DNA from: Sphaerochaeta sp.
GTDB taxonomy: Bacteria; Spirochaetota; Spirochaetia; Sphaerochaetales; Sphaerochaetaceae
Length of the DNA: 64,000 nucleotides
Direction: 5' to 3'
Assembly (NCBI GenBank): GCA_022482495.1
Contig: JAKVPA010000006.1
Location: 1 to 64,000 of the forward strand
This document shows, in pieces, positions 45,555 to 54,656 of this stretch. Both the position numbers and the translations under genes were made by a program. How positions within the stretch are numbered: position 1 is the stretch's first letter; the number at the start of each line of letters is the position of its first letter. The notes under the pieces are model-generated. The model saw only the letters and a program-made list of their open reading frames with translations. It was not told where the DNA came from and did not search any database.

Positions 45555-46214
45555 ATGATCCGCGAATGGATGGTTGATATGGGGGGTGTCCTGACCCTTC
45601 ACCAAGACAAGGAAATGGAACGGGAAATCCTCTCGTTCTTGGGGGACAGCCATCCATCGTTTGACGCGATCGCCCCGGTCCTCAGCGGCTCGTTGCTTGA
45701 CCGCATGAGTTGCCGGGAGATCGACGAGGCGACGTATTGGAAAGAGTTTTCCCGTATCAGTGGCATTCCCATTCCTGATCTCAAAGGACGGTCCCTGTGG
45801 GGGATGTTTTTCCATCCGGTCATTGACCAGGCGGTCCGTGGTTTGATCATCAGGGCGAAGGCGCGAGGGGTGCGTGTGGTGCTTGCCAGCAATACGGAAC
45901 CAGCCCACCTGAAGATCCATACGGAACGCGGGGATTATCGGATATTTGACACGCGGTACACTTCCTGCAGGTTGCGTCTGGTAAAACCGGACCTCCGGTT
46001 CTTCCAGGAAATACTTCGCAGGGAAGGAAGCCGTCCGGAAGAAACGTTGTTCACCGACGACAGCCAGCGGAACTGTGACGCGGCCGCACGGCTCGGGATC
46101 CTCACGTGGCGATACACGGATCCACCTGCTTTGGAAGCTTTGCTTATCAAGCTGGGCGTACTGGAAAATGAACCGGTAACAGAACATACAACATTATATA
46201 ATGAAAAGAGTTGA
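45555..46214 (+). CDS. HAD-superfamily hydrolase, YihX-like
   Basis: 219 residues. Motif I is MVDMGGVLT, the D-x-G-G/N variant seen in sugar-phosphate phosphatases such as YihX. Motif II is VVLASNTEPAH, motif III the Lys in RLVKPDLRFF, motif IV TLFTDDSQRNCDAAARLG. The helical cap lies between motifs I and II. It probably hydrolyses a hexose phosphate, and the glycosidase gene 32 bases downstream fits a sugar role. Confidence 0.85.
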   Translation: MIREWMVDMGGVLTLHQDKEMEREILSFLGDSHPSFDAIAPVLSGSLLDRMSCREIDEATYWKEFSRISGIPIPDLKGRSLWGMFFHPVIDQAVRGLIIRAKARGVRVVLASNTEPAHLKIHTERGDYRIFDTRYTSCRLRLVKPDLRFFQEILRREGSRPEETLFTDDSQRNCDAAARLGILTWRYTDPPALEALLIKLGVLENEPVTEHTTLYNEKS

Positions 46215-46246
46215 ATGGTAATGTATCCAAACAAATGGAGGAACAT

Positions 46247-47566
46247 ATGACGTTTCCAATGCCTGAGGATTTTTTGTGGGGATGCGCGACGGCAAGCTAT
46301 CAGATTGAGGGATATCCCGATGGTGAGGGGAAGGAACCAAGCATCTGGGACACCTTCTGCAAACAACCTGGGACGATCCTCAACGGGGATACCGGGGATG
46401 TCGCGTGCCAGGGCTATGAGCGGTATCCGGAGGACATCGCCTTGATGGCCTCCCTGGGGTTCAAGGCGTACCGGTTCTCCCTTTCCTGGCCGCGGATCAT
46501 CTCGTATGGCAAGGTGAACCAGGCGGGGATCGAGCATTACCGGAAGGAATTGGAATGCATCCACCAGCACCATATGAAGGCGTATGTGACGTTGTATCAC
46601 TGGGATCTTCCCCAGAGCCTGGAGGACAACGGTGGCTGGCTGAACAGGGAGACGGCGTACGCGTTCCAGCGGTACGCCCAGGTGTGCTTCCAGTCGTTCG
46701 GGGACCTGGTTGATGGCTGGATTACATTGAACGAGCCATGGTGCGCAGCGTATCTTGGATATGAGATCGGCGTGCATGCTCCTGGCAAGAAAGTCCACGG
46801 GTATCCCACCGCTGCGCACATCTTGCTCCTGGCGCATGGCCTGGCGGTGAAAGCGTATCGGGAGACCGGACTGAAGAGTCCGATCGGCATCACGCTGAAC
46901 CCCGCGGTCACCCGTCCCGCGACCTCTTCCGAACAGGATGGAATCGCCGCGTGGATGGAGATGGTGACACAGACCGACCTGTTCTTGGATCCATTGACCA
47001 CAGGAACCTATCCCAAGGTGCTCAGCGATCATTTCGGCATGCATTTTCCGGTACAGGACGGGGATATGGAGGTGATCAGCCAGCCGGTTGATTTCCTTGG
47101 CATCAATTACTACAGCGAACATGTCATCTCGTATGACGAGAACGCGCCGTATTTGTTCACCGTCGCTCCCAGCTGGCAGGAAGTCACGGACATTGGATGG
47201 CCGGTCACCCCGTATGGTTTGCTTCATATCCTCCGGTATTTTGCGAAAAAGGCTCCAGGAGTACCTCTGTACATCACGGAAAATGGAGCCTCCTACGCGA
47301 CAGGGCCGTCTGAGGATGGCAGGGTGCATGACGTGAAGCGGTGTGATTATCTGAAACGACATCTGGAAATGTGTCACCTCGCCATCGAGGAGCACATTCC
47401 ATTGCAAGGATATTTCGTATGGTCATTCATGGACAATTTTGAATGGTCGTATGGGTATTCCCAACGCTTTGGAATCGTCTACGTAGATTATCCGACACAG
47501 AAACGGATCGTAAAAGACAGCGGATATTTGCTACGGGATTGCATGCATAATCCTATAGAATGGTAG
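46247..47566 (+). CDS. Glycoside hydrolase family 1 beta-glucosidase (possibly 6-phospho)
   Basis: 439 residues, full (beta/alpha)8 barrel. FLWGCATASYQIEG, SIWDTFCKQPG, YRFSLSWPRI, LYHWDLPQ, the acid/base Glu in WITLNEPW, and the nucleophile Glu in YITENGA. The end is YFVWSFMDNFEWSYGYSQRFGIVYVDY. The WSYGYSQRFG loop is of the ordinary beta-glucosidase type rather than the S-x-K-x-Y phosphate loop, so non-phosphorylated glucosides are more likely. GGAGG precedes ATG 46247. Confidence 0.93.
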   Translation: MTFPMPEDFLWGCATASYQIEGYPDGEGKEPSIWDTFCKQPGTILNGDTGDVACQGYERYPEDIALMASLGFKAYRFSLSWPRIISYGKVNQAGIEHYRKELECIHQHHMKAYVTLYHWDLPQSLEDNGGWLNRETAYAFQRYAQVCFQSFGDLVDGWITLNEPWCAAYLGYEIGVHAPGKKVHGYPTAAHILLLAHGLAVKAYRETGLKSPIGITLNPAVTRPATSSEQDGIAAWMEMVTQTDLFLDPLTTGTYPKVLSDHFGMHFPVQDGDMEVISQPVDFLGINYYSEHVISYDENAPYLFTVAPSWQEVTDIGWPVTPYGLLHILRYFAKKAPGVPLYITENGASYATGPSEDGRVHDVKRCDYLKRHLEMCHLAIEEHIPLQGYFVWSFMDNFEWSYGYSQRFGIVYVDYPTQKRIVKDSGYLLRDCMHNPIEW

Positions 47567-48533: not shown

Positions 48534-49296
48534 ATGAGCAAATCAATCGCGTTTCACCTCCAAAAAGGTGGAGTAGGGAAAACAACCATCTCTGGAACAT
48601 TAGCCTGCCAGTCAGCTCTGGATGGGTTTGAGACGCTGTTGATTGATGTCGACCCCCAAGGGAAACGCATCTTCTTGGTTTTTGAAGGATGCGCCCAAAT
48701 ATGAACTTGCGGATGTAATACAAGGCAAATGTTTTGCCCAAGAGGCTATCGTACCTCTTGCAATCATTCCGCATTTGTTTATTCTGCCCACATTTGGAAT
48801 TGGGGGTTCGTTGAAGAACTATTCGGAAACGAAATTAGCCGAGGAACCATATGTTCTTCAGGATTTGATTACGGAATTACAGAAAACATATGAACATATC
48901 ATTCTGGATCTCTCCCCTGGATTAGGAAGGCTCGAGCGTTCTGCTTTGATCGCGGTAGATGAGGTCATCACACCAATGACTCCGGAAGTGTTCAGTCTGG
49001 ATGGTTTGGAAATATTCATCAATGAACTGAACCGTTTCAAAAAGAATCTTCGTTCAAACGTCAAGCATTCACGGATCGTCATCAACTCATTTGACGAACG
49101 AATCCGTCAACATAGAGATATTTATGACGCTGCCTGCAAAGGCACGTATACGGTATACAAAATTCCAGTCGATCCACTGTTCCGAAAGGCGCAGGAAGCA
49201 TCGATGCCACCGCAACTCTTCAAGTCCCATGGAAAAGGTTTGAAGCCAAAGACGGTGGAAGCGATCAAAGCGTTGGATTCAGCAATTTGGAGATAG
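48534..49296 (+). pseudogene. parA: ParA-family partition ATPase, broken by one base
   Basis: The first frame encodes a deviant Walker A (LQKGGVGKTTISGT) and the A' motif TLLIDVDPQG, then runs to a stop at 48699. The +1 frame carries on exactly where the family continues: GNASSWFLKDAPKYELADV, IILDLSPGLGRLERSALIA (Walker B region), VITPMTPEVFSLDGLEIF and RIVINSFDERI. Removing one base in the CCCCCAAGGGAAA run (48653-48665) restores a ~254-residue ParA reading DPQGNASSW. It belongs to plasmid-type segregation with the small gene that follows. Confidence 0.85.
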
Positions 49297-49307: not shown

Positions 49308-49544
49308 ATGGCGTTGAAACGAAACATTGAAGCGGAAGAAGCTGCAGCGACAGAAAGTATCAGTGGGCAAAAAGCGAAACAATTGTTTTCCCGAAAGGAG
49401 AACAAAATCCTCACCACCTTCTCCATAGAACCATCCTTCAAATCGGAATTGGAAGAAATGTTCTCCGATATGGGGTTAGGATGGGCGGCAGGTATTCGTT
49501 TCGCATTAAAGGAATTCTATAAAAAGCATGCTGATGAAGCATGA
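49308..49544 (+). CDS. Small partition partner, probable ribbon-helix-helix protein
   Basis: 78 residues, twelve bases after parA. A charged N-terminus is followed by ILTTFSIEPSFKSELEEMFSDM and GWAAGIRFALKEFYKKHADE, a strand-helix-helix pattern like RHH DNA-binding proteins. In type Ib partition systems such a protein binds the centromere repeats upstream of parA and represses the operon. GGGGGAGAG precedes ATG 49308. Intact although parA is broken. Confidence 0.6.
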   Translation: MALKRNIEAEEAAATESISGQKAKQLFSRKENKILTTFSIEPSFKSELEEMFSDMGLGWAAGIRFALKEFYKKHADEA

Positions 49545-49732: not shown

Positions 49733-49733
49733 A

Positions 49734-49759
49734 AATGGGTGATTGCAAACGAGTGGTGA
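49734..49759 (+). repeat. Left terminal inverted repeat of the IS
   Basis: Matches the right end at 24 of 26 positions. Confidence 0.88.
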
Positions 49760-49783
49760 CAATCGGTGAGAAACCCGTATAAT
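49756..49783 (+). promoter_or_regulatory. Transposase promoter at the left end of the IS
   Basis: GTGACA, 16 bases, TATAAT. The -35 overlaps the inner edge of the inverted repeat, so transposase binding could repress its own gene. Confidence 0.55.
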
Positions 49784-49786
49784 GTG

Positions 49787-50890
49787 ATGCGAGAGTTTCC
49801 AAGGCAAGATGTAGCGAGCGTGGTGGCCCAATACGTTTTGCCAAGGAAACGCTCAATAGAGGCCACCACCTTGAAGAAGCATAATCACATGAAGTCCAGG
49901 AAGGCGACTCCCTGGGACGGGATGACGGACCTGACTCCCACAGAGGAATACATCAGGGACCATCATCAGGAACACTACCGGATTCATCACCAGACGTTGG
50001 GTGAGGACATGGAATCGTCGCTGTTGAACAGCCGGAAGCCGGAACGCTGCAGTTACTGCGGGTCCAAGGATTTCATCCGTTTCGGTCACAACGCAAGCGG
50101 TGTCCAAGTCTATCGTTGCCGTTCCTGCGGCCGCAGGTTCACGGTGCTGACGGGGACGATCTTCGACTCGCACAAGATTCCCATCAGCGAATGGATTGAG
50201 TTCCTCTACAACCTGTTCTCGTTCGTCAGCCTTACCGCCGACTCCTGGAACAACAAGAATGCTTTCACCACATCGAAATACTGGCTCGAGAAGGTGTTCC
50301 TCCTCGTCGGGGAGTACCAGAAGGGCATCAAGCTGAAGGGTGATGTGGTTCTGGACGAGACCTTCTATCCCGTAAGGTCAGAGGAAACCGTCTGGAAAGA
50401 CGGGAAGAAGCTCCGGGGCCTTTCCGTCAACCAGATATGCATCGGCGTCGCCTGCGACAACGAGCATGTGTTCTGCGTCCTGGAGGGCAAAGGGAAGCCG
50501 TCACAGGGAAAGACGTGGTCGGCTTTCAAGGACCATATCGAGAATGGTTCCGTGCTCATCCACGACAAGGAAAACGCCCACAAGACGCTTGTTTCCGGCC
50601 TTGGTCTCACCAGCATGTCCTACGATGCGAGGGAGATCAAGAAACTGGATGACCGGGACAATCCTCCGGAACGGGTGAACAGGATACACTTTCTCCTGAA
50701 AAGGTTCTTCATGGCGCACTCGAGTTTCAAGAGGGAATACATCGGCGGGTTCATCGACCTGTTCTCTTTCGTGATGAATCCACCGTCGGAAAAGCTGGAA
50801 AAGGTCAAGGTTCTGCTCGATTTGGGATTGACCCACGCCCAAATACTCCGATTTCGTGATGATTTTCTTGAAATCAAGCATTCAGATTGA
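49787..50890 (+). CDS. IS1595-family transposase (ISXO2-like)
   Basis: About 367 residues. A zinc ribbon (CSYCGS...CRSCGRRFTV) is followed by the DDE-type domain with the first Asp in GDVVLDETFYPVRS, the second in VLIHDKENAHKTL, and the closing region SSFKREYIGGFIDLFSF. The start is unsure: ATG 49787, GTG 49766 and ATG 49889 are in frame. The -10 box at 49778 makes starts upstream of about 49790 doubtful, so 49889 (333 residues) may be the true one. The frame is intact, so the element may be active. Confidence 0.85.
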   Translation: MREFPRQDVASVVAQYVLPRKRSIEATTLKKHNHMKSRKATPWDGMTDLTPTEEYIRDHHQEHYRIHHQTLGEDMESSLLNSRKPERCSYCGSKDFIRFGHNASGVQVYRCRSCGRRFTVLTGTIFDSHKIPISEWIEFLYNLFSFVSLTADSWNNKNAFTTSKYWLEKVFLLVGEYQKGIKLKGDVVLDETFYPVRSEETVWKDGKKLRGLSVNQICIGVACDNEHVFCVLEGKGKPSQGKTWSAFKDHIENGSVLIHDKENAHKTLVSGLGLTSMSYDAREIKKLDDRDNPPERVNRIHFLLKRFFMAHSSFKREYIGGFIDLFSFVMNPPSEKLEKVKVLLDLGLTHAQILRFRDDFLEIKHSD

Positions 50891-50895
50891 GTTTT

Positions 50896-50921
50896 TCACC
50901 ACTCGTTTGCAAGTACCCATT
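50896..50921 (-). repeat. Right terminal inverted repeat of the IS
   Basis: Reverse complement of the left end with two mismatches. Confidence 0.88.
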
Positions 50922-50922
50922 G

Positions 50923-50930: not shown

Positions 50931-50997
50931 ATATTCTGTATCAACTGGTACGCTTTCACCATTACCTTTCCGTCTCATCTGAGGTATAGTACTGATG

Positions 50998-52518
50998 ATG
51001 GATCAAGAACGATGGTGGCAACGATGCGTATCCTATGAAATCTTTCCGAGAAGTTTTCAGGATACGAACGGTAACGGAATTGGCGACATACCTGGCATCA
51101 TCATGCGGCTTCCCTACCTGAAGAAACTCGGTGTAGGATGCTTGTGGATTGCTTCCATTTTCTTTGCAAATGATTTCTTGGGCGAAGAAGTGATGGATTA
51201 TCGTGCCGTAGATCCTGTGCTCGGTTCGATGAGTGATGTTGATGCCTTGATCGCCGAAGCACATCGTCTTTCTATCAACGTAGTGCTGGAAATGCCGATC
51301 GGGCATACAAGCGCGCGCCATGCGTGGTTTCTGGAAAGCAGGAAGGGCGGATCTTCCAATCCATACCAGGATTTCTATCTCTGGACGGACACCACGTGCA
51401 ACTGGGTGACGATCAAATCAGATGGCGCGTTGACATGGGATTCTTCCCGCAACGCGGCATTTGTCCACACGTACGGGGAAAATCTGCCGGATCTCAACTG
51501 GAGAGACGAGCATGTGGTCAAAGCCATGTACGACCAGTGTCGATTCTGGCTGGAGAAGGGTGTTGATGGTCTGGAGTTCCATGATGTGAACACCATCATC
51601 AAGGACGAGACATTCCGTGACAACCCCTCTCTGTCGATGTTGTTGCATCCACGGTCGTATGAACGGCAATTGCACGTCTTTGACCGTAACCGACCGGAAT
51701 CCCATCGGGAACTCAGACGGTTGCATGCCATGGTGGGGGAATGTGACAATCGCTTGATGGCAGGCGACATCCTGCAGGAGAAGGCGGGAGAACCGGAAAT
51801 CGCCGCTTCCTACGTGGGAGACCAGCTGGACATCACGTTTGATGATGCCTTGATGCGTCTTCCGTTCCGAGCTTCTGCGTGGAGATGGTGCGCACAGCGG
51901 TGGTACCAGGCCGTCGGTGAGAACGGCTGGCCCGCGTGGCGAATGGAGTCAGGAAAGGACGGCAGGATCGTTGACCGATGGAAAGGGAAGGATGGCAGGG
52001 CGCGCATCGCTGCGATGTTCCTGCTTACCCAGAAAGGGATGCCGTTGTTGTATTACGGCCAGGAGATCGGACTTTGCTCCAAAGCCAAGGAAACAAAGGA
52101 AGGAAAGGTTCCCACCGTTTCCTGGCGGCCAATGGTTTGGACGGATCAGGAAGGACATGGCTTCACCACGGGAACGCCATGGCTTCCCTGGGGGAATGCC
52201 GCATCGTCCGTCGCCCATGGGGAAACGGATGCGGATTCCTTGTTTTCGTTGTACAGGCGTCTGATTGCGCTTCGCAACGAGGATTCCGTGCTGCAGGCTG
52301 GCACGATCCACTTTCTGGACAGCGGCCGGCATGGCGTTCTTGCCTACTGCCGTCAGCTCGGTGAGGAAAAACGGATCATTCTGCTGAACTTCCGCTCCCG
52401 CCACAGCGAGGTGCGTACCGACGCCCATACCATAATGCTTTCCACCTCATCAATGCCGACCTGGGTGAGGGGAAAGCTGGTCCTCGGTCCGTACCAAGGC
52501 GTAATTCTCAAAGCCTGA
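50998..52518 (+). CDS. GH13 alpha-amylase-family protein with all catalytic residues replaced
   Basis: 506 residues, close to oligo-1,6-glucosidase over its whole length: RWWQRCVSYEIFPRSFQDTN, NGIGDIPGIIMRLPYLKKLG, RHAWFLESRKG, ENLPDLNW, MPLLYYGQEIGL, GFTTGTPWLPWG. The four catalytic regions are eroded. Region I DLVVNHTSD is LEMPIGHTSA. Region II GFRxDV is GLEFHDV, so the nucleophile Asp is His and the Arg is Glu. Region III VGE is AGD. Region IV NHDQPR is SGKDGR, so the stabilising Asp is Lys. Fold-core residues persist, so it is probably a sugar-binding pseudoenzyme. TATAGT lies seven bases before ATG 50998; an ATG at 50995 with GAGG is the alternative. Confidence 0.88.
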   Translation: MDQERWWQRCVSYEIFPRSFQDTNGNGIGDIPGIIMRLPYLKKLGVGCLWIASIFFANDFLGEEVMDYRAVDPVLGSMSDVDALIAEAHRLSINVVLEMPIGHTSARHAWFLESRKGGSSNPYQDFYLWTDTTCNWVTIKSDGALTWDSSRNAAFVHTYGENLPDLNWRDEHVVKAMYDQCRFWLEKGVDGLEFHDVNTIIKDETFRDNPSLSMLLHPRSYERQLHVFDRNRPESHRELRRLHAMVGECDNRLMAGDILQEKAGEPEIAASYVGDQLDITFDDALMRLPFRASAWRWCAQRWYQAVGENGWPAWRMESGKDGRIVDRWKGKDGRARIAAMFLLTQKGMPLLYYGQEIGLCSKAKETKEGKVPTVSWRPMVWTDQEGHGFTTGTPWLPWGNAASSVAHGETDADSLFSLYRRLIALRNEDSVLQAGTIHFLDSGRHGVLAYCRQLGEEKRIILLNFRSRHSEVRTDAHTIMLSTSSMPTWVRGKLVLGPYQGVILKA

Positions 52519-54625
52519 ACAGGAGATCATCGTATCCGGGATACGGCCAAAGCTGTTTGTCCGTGATGTTCTCCAACGCGTCCACCGTACCACGAAGCGC
52601 TTCCATACGGGGGCGTACCTCGTCACGGAACGCTGTAGCCTGGGCGAGGGGATCATCCTTCCGCACTTGGGCTTTCGCGATACCGATGTGCAACCGCTCA
52701 CCTTGGGTGATGGCCCGTTCCAACAGTTCGTTCTTCTGTTTCAGCAGCGCCATCTGCGCGGTCACATCCAAACCCTGTGCTTTCTGCGCTGACAGACTGA
52801 CGGCGCTCTGGCGGATATCCTTGGTGACGGCCGGGATGATTGATTTCCGTATCATTTCCAGCATGACGGATGCTTCAATGTTCACCTGTTTGCTGAACGT
52901 GTCCAGATACAGTTCCTCGCGGGAGACGACCTCTTCTCGGGTGAATACCTTTTGCCGTTCAAACAGCGCGATGGAGGTTTCGCTGACCATTTCCGGAAGC
53001 GCGCTGACCGTGTCTTTGCGTTCCGGCAATCCTCTTCTGGCCGCTTCCTTGGCCCATTCCGGTCCATATCCGTTGCCATTGAAGATGATTCGCTTGTGGG
53101 CGCGGTAGAAGTCCCTGATGATGGCATGGCTTTCCGCCAGTTTGTCTTCAGCCTTCTCCAGACGATCGGCAACCTCCTGGAGCACGTCAGCCATGGCGGT
53201 GTTGATGAAGATGTTCGGACTGCTCATCGACTGGGAGGAACCGACCATCCGGAATTCAAACTTGTTGCCGGTGAACGCCATCGGACTGGTGCGGTTCCGG
53301 TCGGTGAGATCCTTGGGAAATTGAGGAATCATCGGGATACCCAGCTTGACGCACTGTCCATCCTGCTGTTTGCAGGGTTTGCCTTCGGCGATTCCCTCCA
53401 GAATATCGGTCAGTTGCTGGCCGAGGAACACGCTGATCACCGCAGGCGGCGCTTCCAAACCGCCCAGACGGAAATCATTGCCCGCCGTGGCCGCGCCAGC
53501 GCGGATCAACGGGGCATATTCGTCCACCGCCTTGAGAAAGGAGGTGATCATCAGCAGGAACAGGATGTTCTCTTCCGATTTGGAACCGGGAGAGAGCAGG
53601 TTGGTCCCATCGTCGGTGGACAGGGACCAATTGTCATGCTTGCCCGATCCATTGACGCCGGAAAACGGTTTTTCATGAAGCAACGCCACCATTCCGTGGC
53701 GGAGCGCCACGCTTTGCAGCACTTCCATCAACACTTGGTTGTGATCGGTTGCGATGTTGGCGGCGTCGTACACCACGGCGATCTCAAACTGGTTGGGAGC
53801 GGCTTCCATGTGCTGTGTCTTGCTGGAAATGCCAAGTTTCCAAAGGACGTGGTCCAGTTCCGCCATGAAATTGCCCACTTTGTCGTTGATCTGCCCGTAA
53901 TAATGGTCGTCCAGTTCCTGGCCTTTCGCGGCGAATGAGCCAAGCACCGTCCGTCCGGTCAGCCTCAGGTCGGGACGTTGGTCATAGGAATCCTTGTTCA
54001 CCAGAAAGTATTCCTGTTCAGGGCCGATGTTGACCGTCACCCGTTTGGCTGGTTTTCCCAACAGGCCCAATACCCTGAGTGTCTGTTTCTCCAGCGCCGC
54101 GGTGGAACGGAGGAGCGGTACCTTCTTGTCCAATGCTTCACCGTTGTACGAAAAGAACGCCGTCGGGATGTACAGGATCCGTTGCCCTCCGGTTTCCTTG
54201 ATGAACGCCGGTGAGGAAGTGTCCCAGGCGGTGTATCCTCTCGCCTCAAAGGTGGTGCGAAGCCCGCCGTTGGGGAACGATGAAGCGTCGCTTTCCCCTC
54301 GGATCAACTCTTTTCCGGAAAATTCCAGGAGCACTTTGCCCGAGCGGGTCGGGGTGATGAAACTGTCATGCTTCTCCGCCGTGAGACCCGTCAACGGCTG
54401 GAACCAATGGCAGTAGTGGGTGGCGCCTTTCTTCAGGGCCCATTCCTTCATCGCGCCGGCCACATGGTCGGCCAGCTCCGGAGTGAGTTCCCCGCGTCCC
54501 CGTTGGACTTCCTTCAGTTGCCTGATCGTTGTTTCCGAAAGGAAACGGGCCATCTCCGGCTCGGTGAAACAATCACAGCCGTACAGATCGGATACGGCTG
54601 TCTTCGCGTAATCGACTTCGAACAT
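52508..54625 (-). CDS. glnN: Glutamine synthetase type III
   Basis: Main ammonia-assimilating enzyme. 705 residues, the large GSIII size. Conserved blocks: N-terminal ATHYCHWFQPLTGLTAEKHDSF, FSGKELIRGESDASSFPNGG, NIGPEQEYFLVNK, TQHMEAAPNQFEIA, HEKPFSGVNGSGKHDNWSLS, LRAGAATAGNDFRLGG-like RAGAATAGNDFRLGGLEAPPA and NRTSPMAFTGNKFEFRMVGS. AAGGAG precedes ATG 54625. It has its own promoter with an overlapping inverted repeat and ends 11 bases inside the GH13-like gene. Confidence 0.96.
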   Translation of the reverse strand: MFEVDYAKTAVSDLYGCDCFTEPEMARFLSETTIRQLKEVQRGRGELTPELADHVAGAMKEWALKKGATHYCHWFQPLTGLTAEKHDSFITPTRSGKVLLEFSGKELIRGESDASSFPNGGLRTTFEARGYTAWDTSSPAFIKETGGQRILYIPTAFFSYNGEALDKKVPLLRSTAALEKQTLRVLGLLGKPAKRVTVNIGPEQEYFLVNKDSYDQRPDLRLTGRTVLGSFAAKGQELDDHYYGQINDKVGNFMAELDHVLWKLGISSKTQHMEAAPNQFEIAVVYDAANIATDHNQVLMEVLQSVALRHGMVALLHEKPFSGVNGSGKHDNWSLSTDDGTNLLSPGSKSEENILFLLMITSFLKAVDEYAPLIRAGAATAGNDFRLGGLEAPPAVISVFLGQQLTDILEGIAEGKPCKQQDGQCVKLGIPMIPQFPKDLTDRNRTSPMAFTGNKFEFRMVGSSQSMSSPNIFINTAMADVLQEVADRLEKAEDKLAESHAIIRDFYRAHKRIIFNGNGYGPEWAKEAARRGLPERKDTVSALPEMVSETSIALFERQKVFTREEVVSREELYLDTFSKQVNIEASVMLEMIRKSIIPAVTKDIRQSAVSLSAQKAQGLDVTAQMALLKQKNELLERAITQGERLHIGIAKAQVRKDDPLAQATAFRDEVRPRMEALRGTVDALENITDKQLWPYPGYDDLLFRL

Positions 54626-54656
54626 GAGGCTTCTCCTTTTCGCACATGATGAACCT

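Follow-up and report, generated by a model that had tools for sequence, protein, structure and literature searches.

A GH13 gene of Sphaerochaeta sp. encodes a protein in which the catalytic residues are replaced, raising the question of whether its product is inactive yet still useful, an enzyme with unusual chemistry or a gene already in decay. We analysed it within a stretch of 64,000 nucleotides of contig JAKVPA010000006.1 (hereafter, the window). The gene occupies positions 50998–52518 of the forward strand and starts at a tandem ATG, at 50995 or 50998, yielding a protein of 506–507 amino acids (P0001) with zero stops. The original prediction, made from the sequence alone, had described a full-length likeness to GH13 glucosidases in an open frame, and both statements were borne out. 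The Pfam Alpha-amylase family (PF00128) matched P0001 from end to end (E 2.1e-74), PDB sequence matches were to GH13 alpha-glucosidases (8.9e-78), and the 506 codons contained no stop or frameshift. Codon usage in frame resembled that of neighbouring genes, and out of frame it was not native. No other GH13 of the same clade was found in the window genome. Automatic annotation will label such genes as alpha-glucosidase.

The original prediction had also proposed a structure prediction and overlay as a check. AlphaFold, run with an alignment of 59 sequences, returned a confident model (mean pLDDT of 93.5, pTM of 0.93) with the full barrel and the C-terminal domain; the (β/α)8 barrel, domain B and C-terminal β domain of the GH13 fold were all present. 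The solved structures nearest to P0001 were the GH13 alpha-glucosidases/transglucosidases XgtA, HaG and QsGH13, and the model superposed on HaG and XgtA over 496–497 residues at 1.8 Å with Z scores of 46–47 (Foldseek, VIA-align). P0001 therefore resembles HaG (PDB 3WY1–3WY4) and XgtA (6AAV) over the whole fold (r.m.s.d. of 1.8 Å, Z of 46) at about 30% identity. However, the triad of HaG is functional (its D202N and E271Q mutants are among the PDB entries), whereas P0001 carries His and Asp at those positions and has a replaced −1 subsite.

Next, we located these replacements by alignment with canonical relatives, using B. cereus oligo-1,6-glucosidase-style numbering with P0001 positions in brackets; all segments named here lie on the forward strand. 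In the region II equivalent GLEFHDVN (51568–51591), the nucleophile Asp199 is His (195) and Arg197, two residues before it, is Glu (193). The acid/base Glu255 is Asp (257) in the region III equivalent MAGDIL (51757–51774). In the region IV equivalent MESGKDGR (51943–51966), the transition-state Asp329 is Lys (320) and His328 is Gly (319), turning NHD into SGK. The GYD motif reads GEE in its equivalent GEEVMDY (51181–51201), with Tyr57 changed to Glu (63) and Asp60 to Glu (64), and the region I equivalent LEMPIGH (51286–51306) has Asp98 changed to Glu (98). P0001 also lacks the Arg of the GRDxxR motif and the region V Gln, reading LPDLN instead of QPDLN, the published region V motif of the oligo-1,6-glucosidase type (PMC11239784). 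His103, Tyr63 and Arg332 are retained, and an Asp stands one residue past two of the lost positions (H195-D196 and K320-D321). The alignment thus upheld every substitution that had been named: the three in the triad, the Arg-to-Glu change and the altered region I. No canonical Asp/Glu/Asp triad was present elsewhere in P0001 in this alignment, and the comparison with about 110 canonical relatives, together with the structure match, ruled out an ordinary active glucosidase with a misread triad.

The losses are concentrated in the pocket. An alignment of 109 canonical proteins has 72 columns conserved at ≥95%. Nine of these belong to the pocket (−1 subsite), and P0001 matches one of them compared with 45 of the 63 others, indicating that pocket losses exceed chance (Fisher P = 0.0009); P0001 also retains conserved columns in proportion to their conservation. 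The original prediction had further suggested that the protein binds sugar, and this found no support: P0001 lacks the residues that bind glucose in the −1 subsite (GYD, Arg, the NHD His, the region V Gln and the GRDxxR Arg), making sugar binding at the old site unlikely.

The surroundings of the gene reveal where it came from. In related genera, a conserved order, whole or in part, runs AsnA, ExoA, GH1, ParA, a small RHH-like gene, GH13, GlnN, UvrD and DUF362; loci of Sphaerochaeta halotolerans and related Spirochaetales are arranged like those of the window's relatives, which places the window in the Sphaerochaetaceae (Spirochaetota). The window itself follows the conserved order: a GH1 beta-glucosidase-type enzyme (46211–47566, forward), a ParA-like ATPase (48534–49296, forward), which is a conserved GH13 neighbour in the family, an intact 78-amino-acid RHH/CopG-like protein (49308–49544, forward), the conserved partner of ParA, and, beyond GH13, the type III glutamine synthetase GlnN (52508–54640, reverse). 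The small protein gave no Pfam match, and its family was read from the sequence. GlnN is convergent with GH13 and overlaps its 3′ end by 11 bp, stop against stop, as in Sphaerochaeta orthologs. Because the gene order and the convergent overlap are common to the relatives, P0001, which is 43–47% identical to canonical Sphaerochaetaceae GH13 orthologs, is orthologous by synteny to the normal glucosidase-type GH13 genes of related genera and not an unrelated import. The canonical orthologs (L036, L037 and L007) occupy the same ParA/RHH/GlnN place but have the full triad and the sugar-binding residues. A plasmid origin was ruled out by this chromosomal syntenic orthology and by the lack of any plasmid match.

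The window locus is also worn, which we counted against a maintained role. The ParA gene is frameshifted after its Walker A region by an extra A in GGGAAACGC near 48660. An insertion sequence (49733–50922, forward), with 29-nt terminal inverted repeats, a flanking direct repeat TAGAATAA (target duplication of 8–9 bp) and a transposase open reading frame (49766–50890) containing a zinc-ribbon-like stretch, stops about 75 bp short of the GH13 start and separates the gene from its usual upstream region. The insertion is recent; a second copy in the genome is 99% identical, making two near-identical copies beside five more distant relatives. No promoter-like match was found between the insertion sequence and the GH13 start codon, which also weighs against a maintained role. 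Last, in two congeners GH13 is absent from the corresponding locus, with no detectable remnant.

To place P0001 among its relatives, we collected clade members at E ≤ 1e-70, which were found in 37 of 139 family genomes. Seven of the 37, from three genera, have lost catalytic residues, as against none of the 79 best close relatives elsewhere on GTDB contigs. The degenerate members differ in extent: L052 has Ser as the nucleophile; L053 and L014 have Ser as the nucleophile and Asp as the acid/base; L013 has Arg and Asp changed to Asn, and NHD to NQF; and L054 and L061 have no catalytic residue left (Q, R, S instead). The pocket residues of L061 (K, S, Y, Q, R, S) differ from those of P0001. L129, which lies on the same contig as L061 and is identical to it, was also predicted confidently, with a pLDDT of 89.6 and with low confidence only in the former GYD loop and one other loop. 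Conserved columns are changed at 26 positions in P0001 and 25 in L061, and 18 of these are shared (hypergeometric P = 6e-6), with mostly different replacing residues. All seven degenerate proteins retain 68 columns, some of them rare outside the family (for example A299, Q345, W314, S271 and Y221); these may mark a shared surface or just the family core. The original prediction had raised the question of orthologues with the same substitutions. None with identical letters, nor any close ortholog of P0001, turned up among 139 family genomes, 395 class genomes or a peptide-pattern scan of GTDB contigs, but other degenerate orthologs do occur in Sphaerochaetaceae.

In the protein trees, the window protein, the g18 group and the pair L054/L061 occupied separate positions. 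One shared origin for all degenerate members was not favoured but was also not rejected (AU P = 0.15), and neither was a grouping of P0001 with L054/L061 (P = 0.21). In the GlnN tree, G133 and G136, two genomes with wholly degenerate proteins, grouped within Sphaerochaeta, together with species whose GH13 is canonical; the window fell outside. This tree, taken with vertical inheritance at a locus that does not move, is more simply explained by separate losses, and the catalytic residues were probably lost independently in the three genera. The end branch of P0001 was the longest in its own clade of the trees, which we again counted against a maintained role.

The wholly degenerate pair L054/L061 (88% amino acid identity, dS of about 1) has a dN/dS of 0.06–0.07, and L053/L014 a dN/dS of 0.13, next to 0.03–0.12 for canonical pairs. 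Selection holds these dead lineages about as tightly as the canonical ones, and the low ratio of L054/L061 points to a role there that is independent of catalysis. For P0001 itself, a random substitution has about a 4.2% chance of producing a stop; with zero stops in the frame, the gene is unlikely to have accepted more than about 70 substitutions free of constraint. Thus, the proposal that selection acts on the fold rather than letting it decay was measured in the orthologs L054/L061, but for P0001, at its worn locus, we only infer it.

Together, the replacement of the triad and most of the −1 subsite, the intact open reading frame, the complete predicted fold and the constrained degenerate syntenic relatives support the pseudoenzyme proposed originally, and we infer that P0001 is inactive yet still useful. 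We consider it probable, although well short of certain, that P0001 is a non-catalytic former alpha-glucosidase-type GH13 that has kept the (β/α)8 fold and acts as a binding or scaffold/regulatory protein. The ancestor would have been a cytosolic alpha-glucosidase-type GH13 at the ParA-RHH/GlnN locus of Sphaerochaetaceae that lost hydrolytic activity and retained the (β/α)8 fold; the descendant would act through non-catalytic binding or scaffold/regulatory contacts made by surfaces common to the active orthologs. The ancestral enzyme may already have had a second role, as suggested by the repeated loss of the pocket while the gene stayed. More tentatively, and with something less than even confidence, we propose that this catalysis-free role is older than the losses and that at least three lineages independently dropped the active site while the protein remained under strong selection. 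If true, this would be a recurrent enzyme-to-pseudoenzyme conversion at one conserved locus that is bacterial, soluble and transporter-free.

The wear at the locus allows another account, in which P0001 was a pseudoenzyme or an enzyme until recently and is now an early pseudogene whose frame is open by chance. The nearby ParA frameshift, the recent insertion upstream, the two congeners without the gene and the long P0001 branch all speak for it; the 506 uninterrupted codons, the confident fold and the native-like codon usage speak against it. The pocket cannot be replaced without numerous substitutions, and a stop would be expected by about 70 neutral ones, so that any decay must be later than the loss of the pocket. 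We consider this account unlikely on the whole; early decay is compatible with a non-catalytic protein, and both could hold. The shifted Asp residues, on the other hand, recall BmaN1 of Bacillus megaterium (GH13_45), a reportedly active enzyme whose aberrant triad has Lys-Asp in place of the nucleophile (PMC5347038). As in P0001, its nucleophile and transition-state Asp are replaced and an Asp directly follows the nucleophile position. On this model, P0001 would be an active enzyme with a displaced triad, as has been proposed for BmaN1, in which Asp196, Asp257 and Asp321 do the chemistry, and the His-Asp and Lys-Asp pairs of P0001 and the Gln-Asp after the nucleophile position in L061 fit it. 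However, BmaN1 belongs to another subfamily and keeps the acid/base Glu, which is Asp257 in P0001 and Arg in L061; BmaN1-type proteins have His at the transition-state stabiliser position, where P0001 has Lys320; and the substrate-holding residues (Arg, the GYD Tyr and Asp, His and the region V Gln) are gone as well, making an active enzyme of this kind highly improbable.

The pocket might instead have been re-tooled, with the barrel binding or converting a different ligand. P0001 has gained mostly charged residues or His (His195, Glu63, Glu64, Glu98, Glu193, Asp257 and Lys320) in an intact predicted fold, and a metal or cationic ligand could sit in this His/acidic cluster. This residue set is common to no ortholog, however, and because the pockets of the other degenerate members are quite different, no common pocket chemistry is visible; we regard re-tooling as very unlikely. 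Least credible of all is a partnership with a membrane transporter, as for 4F2hc and rBAT, which the original prediction had brought up. The fold does resemble rBAT, and a PTS_EIIC_2 gene follows GH13 in G122, G019 and the canonical G128. But the barrel of P0001 starts at about residue 6, leaving no room for an N-terminal membrane anchor, and PTS_EIIC_2 is missing from all three genomes with wholly degenerate proteins, namely the window genome (G000), G133 and G136; a transporter partner is therefore not supported for P0001. A conserved transporter neighbour was likewise ruled out, as the gene next to GH13 differs between lineages.

Our preferred reading, a non-catalytic protein that has kept its fold, has partial precedents. 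The known dead GH13 proteins are mostly eukaryotic (4F2hc and ISA2), and for bacteria there are scattered notes. The plant isoamylase ISA2 has lost its catalytic residues and works in complex with its active paralog ISA1, whereas no active GH13 of P0001's clade was found in the window genome. Non-catalytic functions are reported for ISA2 as a GH13 protein (PMC12510319). The catalytic triad is not conserved in 4F2hc (SLC3A2; PMC8537225). The 4F2hc and rBAT ectodomains share with P0001 an oligo-1,6-glucosidase-type GH13 fold without proven activity, but they are animal, membrane-anchored and SLC7-linked, whereas P0001 has neither anchor nor transporter neighbour. In bacteria, GH13_48 proteins, a different subfamily from P0001, are noted as lacking catalytic residues and possibly inactive (PMC11239784). 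We found no report of a soluble bacterial dead-GH13 group at one conserved locus in the PMC open subset, although such silence is weak evidence that none exists. Triad-deficient GH13 proteins as such were already known, whereas repeated losses at a single conserved locus in a group of soluble bacterial proteins, with the constraint on them measured, appear to be new. One bacterial family offers, at a single syntenic locus, a graded series from canonical through one residue lost to a wholly lost triad, and the purifying selection measured on its dead members allows the role of the fold apart from hydrolysis to be asked about.

Several further observations concern the locus and the clade. Most of the family retains the chromosomal pair of ParA and a small RHH-like protein, and ParA is present in 103 of 139 genomes. 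The ParA of G136 (L061, 845–1501) is broken too, its N-terminal Walker A region missing beside a transposase; among the other genomes, only G136 combines a wholly degenerate GH13 with a ParA that is assembled. The remaining ParA genes of the 103 genomes seem intact; the exceptions are truncated matches, mostly where a contig ends. Genes for PTS_EIIC_2 membrane proteins lie directly 3′ of GH13, dead or canonical, at L058 (9025–10071), L060 (3084–4130) and L062 (8141–9262). In L049 (G146), only the transition-state Asp is changed, to Glu (NSHE), possibly an early step of loss. Finally, relatives of the clade with a canonical triad (L102–L175) occur on contigs labelled Chloroflexi, Bacteroidales, Actinobacteria and archaea, a distribution that suggests wide horizontal spread of this GH13 clade.
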